Made by a program: the position numbers and the translations under genes. DNA of 64,000 nt from Tetradesmus obliquus (taxonomy: Eukaryota; Chlorophyta; Chlorophyceae; Sphaeropleales; Scenedesmaceae): assembly GCA_030272155.1 (NCBI GenBank), contig CP126200.1:3596001-3660000 (forward strand). Direction: 5' to 3'. The notes beneath the pieces were generated by a model. That model saw nothing but the letters and a program-made list of their open reading frames with translations. It did not search any database and had not been told where the DNA came from. This document shows, piece after piece, positions 8,917-23,836 of this stretch (positions are counted from its first letter, which is position 1; each line of letters begins with the position of its first letter).

Positions 8917-11900
8917 TCAAGCCCTGTTGTGCCTATCCAGCATAGATGTGGTCAGCCTCACAGTTGGGCTGCTGCTGCTGCCGCCACCACCCGCAGCAGC
9001 ACTGCTGCCATCACCAGCAGGGTCCCCGTATGCTTTGGGGCTCCCAGGAGCAGCAGCAGCAGCACCGTCAAGCGCTGCCTGCGCTGCAGCCAGCTTCGAT
9101 GCAATGCTAGCACCATATGCACTGCTGGCCCCGCCAGCCGTACTGCCGTTGGCGTACGCGTTGTTCCCAGTCTCTGCTGCTGCATTGCTGCGCTGCAGCG
9201 CAGCAGCGGCAGCCTCCCGCCAGTTGCTGCCGGTGCGGCCAAGCATATCGCCGCCGCTGCTGCTGCCCGCATAGTAGCCGCCGTTGCTGCCGCTGTTCAC
9301 TGAGCTGGTGGTTGCACTGCGGCGTGGCACAGTGGGGCTTGTAATTGGTGCGCTGTGGGGGATGCCAAGCCCTAAGCCCTGATCCCTGCTGCTGGGCAGG
9401 TGCAGCTCCTGCACAGGCGGCTTCTTGGTGTGCCCTGCTGCCTTGAAGGCGCCACTGCACAGCAGCAGGAATAAGGAATGGCAGCATCACAAATTGGCAA
9501 TGAAAAGAAGATGGATTGCAGGAAGAACTAATGACAAAGATGTGAATGGTTGTGGCGGCAGCTTGGCAATGGTAGTAGATCCCATCCTGGTGGCTGATGG
9601 CATGTCCAGCTACTGCAGGGCGTACAGCATGTACAATATGCAGAATGTGCAGCAGGACACGCACTGCAATGCGGCAAGGCTGTTGCTGGCCAGGGACCCA
9701 TGATTGCTGGTTGCAAGGAGGGCAGCACCGCTGCAAGAGTGAACCTGCAGCAGGACACGCACTGCAATGCGGCAAGGCTGTTGCTGGCCAGGGACCCATG
9801 TTGTTAATTGCATCGTAAGCAGTGCTGCTGCAAGACTTGAACCTCAGAATTTGAATGCTGTGGCTGAGCCACCCACCTGGCTGGATCGTACACTCCTGCT
9901 GTCTCGTAGTCGCAGAAGACACCGTTGTTGGGGTCGGCAGCCGCGCTGTAGGGCAGGCGGGGCGTCTCCAGGGCGCTGCTGTTGTTGGTGGTGCTGCGGC
10001 GCAGCAGCATGCCACCCACACCAGTGAAGGAGCCAAAAGCCTTGCGGATGGGGCCGGCATAGCCACCGGGGTTGAATGCTGCTGCTGCTGCTGCCGGCGA
10101 TGGTGCTGCTGCAGTGGGGTGCGGTGCTGTCAGTGCGCTGTTGGCGGTGCTGCTGCCGGGCCCATGCCGCTGCTGCTGCTGCTGCTGCTGCTGGGTGTGG
10201 TCTGTTACATCAGTGCTGAAGCTGACACGGGAGCCCCTTGATGCTGCTGCTGCTGCCGCATCTGCAGTTGCTGCTCCTGCTCCTGTTTCCTCATCCATCA
10301 CTCCCTCTGCTGCTGGGGCTGGCGGCCCTGCAGGTGCATACCCGCGGCCCTGACTTCCACTGGCAAAAGAGCCTGGCGGCTGGTGGTACTGCTGCTGGTT
10401 GTACTGAGAGTAAGCATCGTACACTGGCTTGTCATCTGGCACTGGGCCGTACCACAAGCTGCTGCCTAAACCGCTGCCACCAGGAGGGCTAAACCCCGCC
10501 GCAACACCGCCGATAAAACCGCCGCCGCCGCCGAAGCTGGCAGCCCCAGGGCCGCCAAACTGACCCCCACCAAAGTGCGGCTGCGGGGCGCTGTAGGGTT
10601 TGAACTGATCATCAGCTCCGGGTCCAGGGCTGTAGCCAGGGTCCCTGTGGCTAGGGTTTATGTCATCATCTGTCAGGTTGCTGGCACCGTGGGCAAAGCT
10701 GTCGCCGCCGCGCGGAGTACTGGCGGTTGTGGTGGGAGGCGGCTTGCCACCAGGTGGCAAGTTTGCCATGCGAGCAGCAAGCATCTCGCTGGCGCGGCGC
10801 TCTGCAGCAGCAGCAGCAGCAACAGCAGCAGCAGCAGCAGCAGCAGCAGCGGGGCAGCAGTATCAGCATTGCGCTGTCAAGGAGAGATGTAAGCTCTACT
10901 CAACTTCAGAGAGCACACCACGTGCAATGCAGCTCGGCTTGCTGCTCCTGATGATCTGCAGCAGTGCTTGCCTCTGTAGCTCCAAGCTGTCACATGCACT
11001 GCTGTGCGCATTGTGTCGCGCTCACAGTGTACGCGCAGGCTGACACAGCCACGCAGCAGTTTGCCATTTACACACCCTTTGCACCAGAAGCATGCAAGCC
11101 TGCTAGAACCTATGCTGTTTTGATGGAACAGCGAGGGACACCATCAACAAGCACATGCTGACATGCAAAATCATAGGGATGTGTTGACTAACTCACCGAG
11201 CAGGTCTCCAATGATCTGCAGCAGAGCAATGGTTGCCACGCCAGCAGCAGCCAGGCCTCCCCACAGCCCAATATTGCCTGCAGCAATGGGTGTTTACCCA
11301 AGGAAGCAGCACACATGGCGCATCATTTTAGTGCTGTACCTTGCGAGTGAGCCAGCACAGGCAGCAAAACATGTGTGCAAATATTCCTCTTAACGTACAC
11401 GCTCGCAATGCACCACACCATGATGCCAAGTTGACACACCTGATGCTGAGTAACCACCACAAATGCACCCTTGTACACTGCACCGCATGCTTTGAACTCA
11501 AACAGATCGCCTGCTCACCCTTGTAAGCGTGCCAAAGAGGTAGATGCCGATGAACACGTTGACCATGCCCAGCATTAGCGCCATACTGTCATCAATACAT
11601 GCAAATCAACCACACCACATGCTCACCCTTGTACAGCGTGCCGAAGAGGTAGATGCCGATGAACACGTTGACCATGCCCAGCATCAGCGCGCAGCGGCCC
11701 AGCATGGCATGGCCCAGCTGCCACAGTGCACGAAGCATGTCGGAGGCTGCAGGGGGCCGCACAAAGCCGATGAGCAGCTGCAGGCAGGTGCAGGCAGCAG
11801 TGTTTTGCAACAACAGCAGCAGCAGCAGCAGCAGCAGCACGGGGCGCGCGACGCCGATGAGCAACTGCAAGTCGATCAGCAGGTGCAAGTTGCGTGCAGC

Positions 11901-23836: not shown

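Follow-up and report, generated by a model that had tools for sequence, protein, structure and literature searches.

A Tetradesmus obliquus gene predicted to join a peroxidase-fold ectodomain to a DOMON-cytochrome b561 membrane part, in a layout that parallels dual oxidases

Gene structure and domain order at the locus

The window analysed here is a stretch of 64,000 nucleotides from Tetradesmus obliquus (contig CP126200.1, positions 3,596,001 to 3,660,000), and its minus strand carries a gene that runs from a start codon at 23836 to a stop codon at 8917, with a predicted product of 1445 aa. An independent rebuild of this gene from the sequence gave 18 exons with consistent phases, GT-AG borders at 17/17 introns and a sole, terminal stop, in agreement with the 18 phase-matched exons that the initial annotation had called (Table 1); every splice site of the model is a prediction from the genomic sequence. 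In a Pfam scan of the spliced protein three domains passed their curated cut-offs: An_peroxidase (aa 39-568, E 3.5e-118), DOMON (aa 619-728, E 6.9e-12) and Cytochrom_B561 (aa 794-923, E 1.4e-7), all with E-values far beyond chance. A further match in the membrane part, to DUF973, was set aside as weak (E 0.0045, under cut-off) and overlapping a membrane segment. In the hydropathy profile, residues 7-32 resemble a signal peptide and five segments fall within 793-959, and the predicted topology places the DOMON domain outside. The contents claimed for the locus, namely a signal peptide, a peroxidase, a DOMON domain and a b561 core with four His, are therefore upheld by Pfam, hydropathy and the residues themselves.

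Table 1. Exons of the predicted gene and intronic exon-copy tracts (window positions)
Feature	Position	Strand	Residues (aa)	Content
Exon 1	23676..23836	-	1-54	Start codon, signal peptide; peroxidase-like domain begins
Exon 2	23044..23119	-	54-79	Peroxidase-like domain; both flanking introns coincide with C11
Exon 3	22323..22482	-	80-133	Altered distal motif GQYATTD (T119, T120, D121)
Exon 4	21165..21380	-	133-205	Cation-site motif T191-F193-D195-S197
Exon 5	20397..20565	-	205-261	Peroxidase-like domain
Exon 6	16943..17089	-	261-310	T267 for distal Arg (GLGTVNQ); proximal H285 retained in LREHNR
Exon 7	16522..16729	-	310-379	Peroxidase-like domain
Exon 8	15862..16094	-	380-457	Peroxidase-like domain, contains NIQRGRDHGLPDYN
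Exon 9	15248..15531	-	457-552	Peroxidase-like domain
Exon 10	14799..14839	-	552-565	Peroxidase-like domain ends
Exon 11	14229..14496	-	566-655	Bridge: peroxidase match end, serine-glycine linker and DOMON start in one open exon
Exon 12	13414..13717	-	655-756	DOMON; M662 and H755 candidate heme ligands
Exon 13	12961..13207	-	756-838	DOMON end, TM helix 1 (H794), TM helix 2 start (H834)
Exon 14	12163..12291	-	839-881	b561 core, H867
Exon 15	11627..11777	-	882-932	b561 core, R897 and H904
Exon 16	11197..11277	-	932-959	Fifth TM helix
Exon 17	9877..10801	-	959-1267	Low-complexity tail, probably cytosolic
Exon 18	8917..9454	-		Tail end and stop codon
Exon-copy tract	12233-12819			Exon 14
Exon-copy tract	11526-11690			Exon 15
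Exon-copy tract	22421-22625			Exon 3
Exon-copy tract	20500-20877			Exon 5
Exon-copy tract	16065-16322			Exon 8

We asked whether the layout could be a gene-model artefact in which adjacent peroxidase and DOMON-b561 genes had been merged. Such a merger would be favored by intron 5, which is 3.3 kb long and probably houses a nested gene on the opposite strand; that intron, however, sits within the peroxidase domain and away from the domain borders, and an identical domain order recurs at a second locus on contig C11. Because exon 11 spans the end of the peroxidase match and continues into DOMON, a two-gene reading is unlikely, and on the combined evidence of this bridge exon and the paralogue on C11 we rejected it as extremely improbable. 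The earlier claim of a single joined gene thus stands, with a second locus of equal order in the same genome.

The b561 part is followed in the spliced model by a low-complexity tail of approximately 485 aa, in which a Pfam scan of the spliced protein found no domain at E 0.1. G+C by codon position is flat in the tail after aa 965 (0.651/0.657/0.626, versus 0.627/0.475/0.748 before it), and because of this the case for a coding tail depends only on its open frames and splice sites; no other portion of the gene model is as uncertain. A tail of this length would suit a sensor or adhesion receptor, whose ectodomain would bind a ligand or the cell wall while the tail signals inside and electron transfer is secondary, and some proteins of the CYBDOM family, which combine DOMON and b561, are described in the excerpted text of PMC10691727 as having an N-terminal adhesion-type reeler domain. 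We nevertheless consider a receptor of this kind very unlikely, given a tail that is devoid of Pfam matches at that threshold and whose composition differs from that of the rest of the gene.

Several introns contain partial tandem copies of the gene's own exons 14, 15, 3, 5 and 8, and the start of exon 14 is present in five copies spaced 108-135 nt. Similar copies of other exons occur at C11, where one copy of a b561 exon contains a stop, and we note that these intronic copies look like pseudo-exons. Long CTG/CAG triplet runs are also found in introns, at 21423-21550 beside exon 4 and at 22894-23040 beside exon 2. The probable nested gene in intron 5 (18011-19230, + strand) comprises an exon for a signal peptide (MKASGALLLSLLVCAALLA) together with exons rich in Gly and Tyr, the last residues before the stop being YGYGKK; the start of its exon 2 is provisional and its pieces are separate. 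Nearby, a 1602-aa stop-to-stop open frame rich in Q and A runs lies at 25098-29906 (+).

A paralogue with the same domain order

We searched the genome, 104.66 Mb in 17 contigs, for further members of the family. The genome also gave 52 exon-level matches to chlorophyll a/b-binding proteins, which point to a photosynthetic eukaryote; among 14 control genomes, one, a cyanobacterium, matched as well. At the level of single exons, An_peroxidase matched 14 times on three contigs: the window gene accounts for 5 of these matches, C11 for 8 and C13 for the remaining one. Downstream of its An_peroxidase exons, C11 has in addition a match to the b561 part of the window protein, and the paralogue (C11:930617-948491), which was modelled by spliced alignment guided by the window protein and then corrected by hand, has 20 exons as far as the end of b561. 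Its protein passes the Pfam cut-offs for all three domains, in equal order (An_peroxidase 3.5e-116, DOMON 8.3e-11, Cytochrom_B561 3.5e-6). The two proteins are identical at 455 of 904 aligned residues, and 10 of the 16 introns of the window gene before aa 965 match C11 in both place and phase, an agreement that is partly by construction because the window protein guided the C11 model. By codon position, the two genes differ by 0.35/0.29/0.50 over the peroxidase part and by 0.37/0.26/0.51 over b561, with a small contrast in DOMON (0.43/0.42/0.50). We infer that the gene pair is old and that both members have retained the joined layout.

Exon-level searches were weak for the other two domains: the Cytochrom_B561 profile listed only places on C3 and C5 in the genome, and neither the window gene nor C11, and the DOMON profile listed only the window gene plus one C15 place under the cut-off, and not C11. 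Both spliced paralogues pass the two cut-offs despite this. The other b561 exons lie at C3:3164739-3165902 and C5:5625455-5625733, and the below-cut-off DOMON exon, with nearby copies, at C15:2956524-2956760; no An_peroxidase match was listed near any of these places in the exon-level genome search. The third An_peroxidase place (L004, C13:3938168-3938647) has the motif IQFMLHDW, which keeps a His, and gave no tblastn match to the peroxidase part of the window protein among rows over 27 bits. We read it tentatively as a member of another subfamily, perhaps an alpha-dioxygenase-like gene.

Residues kept and lost in the peroxidase-like ectodomain

The catalytic residues of animal heme peroxidases are a distal His and a distal Arg, and in mammalian peroxidases an Asp and a Glu link the heme covalently. 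Both paralogues match the An_peroxidase profile (PF03098) over its full length, with the E-values given above. At the distal side, the window protein has GQYATTD and GLGTVNQ where most of the other sequences, comprising solved peroxidases and six bacterial relatives, read like GQFLDHD and GDxRxNE, respectively. The distal His is replaced by T120 and the distal Arg by T267, and T119 and Q270 occupy the places of the Asp and Glu that link heme in mammals. The corresponding motifs on C11 are GQLISID and GNENVNQ, with Ile for the His and Asn for the Arg. Five of the six bacterial rows have the distal His, and the same five have the distal Arg, the exception in both being L039; both residues are present in all three solved sequences that align there (8s6c, peroxinectin A 6erc and myeloperoxidase 12cl). 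Retained in the window protein are the proximal H285 within LREHNR (a proximal His is found in 8/8 aligned rows) and the motif NIQRGRDHG, and both paralogues retain the cation-site pattern D121, T191, F193, D195 and S197.

The sense strand was scanned in three frames, at window positions 16501-24100 and over the initial 6 kb of the C11 stretch, for an unrecognized exon carrying the missing distal His or Arg. None came to light; the matches were the two expected proximal REHN sites and four loose-pattern matches out of context. Because the distal His and Arg are missing in both paralogues, classical peroxidase activity of the ectodomain is doubtful, and the domain could still bind heme and do chemistry given its retained proximal His. 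The initial annotation had proposed that the electrons of the membrane part serve an extracellular peroxidase, and an active enzyme of this kind would turn over H2O2 at the ectodomain heme and have its compounds I and II reduced by the ascorbate-fed b561 and DOMON domains. The full-length An_peroxidase match, H285 and NIQRGRDHG are in keeping with such an enzyme, as are the retained ligands of DOMON and b561; with both distal residues replaced in each paralogue and no alternative exon in the sense-strand scans, we consider it distinctly unlikely, and the proposal was not sustained.

In prokaryote genomes 51 stretches matched our search patterns and 6 were confirmed as relatives, a count that is no census because the patterns were two short peptides; among viral contigs 59 stretches matched the patterns for each of two alignments and none was confirmed. 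By Pfam, all six bacterial open reading frames contain An_peroxidase, none contains DOMON or b561, and two contain other extra domains. One relative, from a Peregrinibacteria MAG (L034), is at 38% identity. Another, from a Hyphomicrobiaceae MAG (L038), is a single open frame of 2719 aa in which three stretches match An_peroxidase and 11 match RTX repeats.

The DOMON-b561 membrane part

The four b561 His of the window protein (H794, H834, H867 and H904) are invariant between the paralogues and are spaced 40/33/37. In Arabidopsis HYP1, for which the excerpted text of PMC10784544 reports metalloreductase activity dependent on ascorbate, with current measurements in oocytes, the His are H211, H245, H278 and H314, spaced 34/33/36. 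The DOMON pair M662/H755, also invariant between the paralogues, has a Met-His spacing of 93; the predicted DOMON heme ligands are M90/H174 in HYP1 (PMC10784544) and M286/H379 in fly CG8399 (PMC10691727), the latter with the same spacing of 93. On the ascorbate side, R897, which stands seven residues before the fourth His and is retained on C11, is the counterpart of HYP1 R307, the residue docked to ascorbate in that work (PMC10784544). The place of HYP1 N311 is taken by Q901 in the window protein and by Asp on C11; at the spacing of HYP1 K234 there is no Lys but S823, with K827 four residues further on (Arg on C11), and R888 is one residue off the place of HYP1 R299.

Of the route that had been proposed from cytosolic ascorbate through b561 and DOMON, the four His, the Met/His pair and R897 speak in favor, whereas the places of N311 and K234 on the ascorbate side differ; the support for the route comes from residues. 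Among solved structures, the DOMON-b561 part had no phmmer match at E 1, and a profile of it gave four matches at chance level only (best E 0.42). DOMON and Cytochrom_B561 occur together with four His, a Met/His pair, a signal peptide and five TM segments, and by these predicted features the membrane part is a CYBDOM, with mixed residues on the ascorbate side.

Proposed function and its alternatives

We favor, with a probability of roughly 0.6, the reading that the protein is a five-TM electron carrier of the CYBDOM kind in the secretory pathway, which bears an N-terminal peroxidase-fold domain without the distal catalytic residues and reduces an acceptor outside. Cytosolic ascorbate would reduce the inner b heme (H834/H904), from which electrons would pass to the outer b heme (H794/H867), to the DOMON heme (M662/H755) and finally to the outside acceptor, which is probably a chelate of ferric or cupric ions or some other one-electron acceptor. 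For the peroxidase-like domain, a part in binding, assembly, stabilization or acceptor positioning is more likely than H2O2 turnover, by analogy with the heme-less peroxidase homology domain of human DUOX1, which, from the part of the literature covered here, appears to act in assembly; the domain in the window protein may also bind a heme via the retained proximal His. The hemes, the donor, the acceptor and the role of the ectodomain are all predicted from sequence.

A different use of that proximal His would be a terminal-heme oxidoreductase, in which H285 holds a fourth heme in an opened distal pocket and ascorbate electrons go on to O2 or a metal, with extracellular superoxide/H2O2 or Fe(II) as products, so that the protein would be a true functional counterpart of dual oxidase. 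This would fit with a proximal His in 8/8 aligned sequences, a distal side altered in both paralogues and residues of the protein that predict three further heme sites. In human DUOX1, however, the peroxidase homology domain is reported to lack heme, and we regard a terminal heme here as unlikely. Taken further, the protein could be an ascorbate-powered four-heme wire whose outermost heme occupies a peroxidase fold that has turned from H2O2 use to O2 or metal reduction, an independently evolved, NADPH- and flavin-free counterpart of dual oxidase that a photosynthetic eukaryote carries as an old pair of genes, and this we put forward as a speculation that is likewise unlikely.

If the favored reading of a CYBDOM-type carrier with a peroxidase-fold ectodomain is true, transmembrane heme carriers have acquired such an ectodomain on at least two occasions, once on the NOX of dual oxidases and once on the DOMON-b561 part described here. 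Each fusion has altered catalytic residues but retains the fold and a cation-site pattern, which suggests that this fold is of use to membrane electron carriers, whether for assembly or as an acceptor domain. The gene pair would then offer a second, independent system for asking what purpose the peroxidase homology domain has in dual oxidases, and a candidate for algal redox or iron chemistry outside the cell, of a sort that a search for NADPH oxidases would not pick up. Among the papers listed by full-text searches, which covered part of the literature, none was seen to describe An_peroxidase combined with DOMON and b561, and an earlier published mention of the triple combination may exist.

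Comparison with known systems

Free-standing heme peroxidases of the animal type, such as 8s6c (named Lactoperoxidase) and the bacterial L034, resemble the window protein in their full-length domain and proximal His, but unlike it they have the distal His and Arg. We also searched for parts of the NOX system. NAD_binding_6, which we take to be the NADPH domain of NOX, had no match in the T. obliquus genome searched exon by exon, where introns may hide one, and matched 2 of 14 control genomes; a search for DUOXA found no match in this genome and none in the 14 controls either.

The closest likeness of the membrane part is to the CYBDOMs. HYP1 has in common with the window protein DOMON and b561, the DOMON Met/His pair, the signal peptide, the five TM segments, the four His and the Arg before the fourth His, and CG8399 shares DOMON and b561 and the Met/His pair. 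The CYBDOMs compared (HYP1; SDR2/FRRS1 and CG8399; Chlamydomonas TEF22 and Cre14.g609900) are described, in the excerpts that cover them, as DOMON and b561 without a peroxidase domain, and the animal ones (SDR2/FRRS1 and CG8399), unlike the window protein, carry a reeler domain. Two Chlamydomonas proteins with b561 and DOMON are thought to be ferrireductases, according to the excerpt of PMC4855317. The eFRE proteins of Naegleria and oomycetes likewise place an extracellular DOMON on a transmembrane reductase, but that reductase is of the ferric-reductase/NOX type, and the excerpt of PMC3591440 describes no peroxidase domain in them. The same excerpt reports peroxidase-like domains joined to NOX and DOMON joined to ferric reductases, and sponge NOX carry b561-like helices in the excerpted account of PMC9524095.

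The peroxidase homology domain of human DUOX1 has neither heme density nor a heme ligand His, and mutants of its cation sites, one of which uses D109, T170, W172, D174 and S176, fail to assemble with DUOXA1, as stated in the excerpted text of PMC7794343. The cation-site residues of the window protein follow the same pattern as that site, whereas the window protein keeps its proximal His and has lost the distal side. Because DUOX1 was absent among the 6 sequences matched by the N-terminal query for direct alignment, this comparison rests on PMC7794343 and on the phmmer table, which names Dual oxidase 1 chains among the matches of the window protein without an alignment. As far as these sources reach, DUOX1/2 and the window protein both have, at the N-terminus and outside the cell, a peroxidase-homology domain whose catalytic residues are altered and whose cation-site pattern is retained, joined to a membrane part that bears heme, as predicted for the window protein. 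They differ in that the membrane part here is b561 and not NOX, that DOMON lies in between, and that Pfam finds neither an FAD/NADPH domain nor EF-hands in the window protein. The parallel with dual oxidases that had been drawn for the layout holds, with other parts and with b561 in the place of NOX, and the best reading is that the predicted protein is DUOX-like in layout and not a DUOX.
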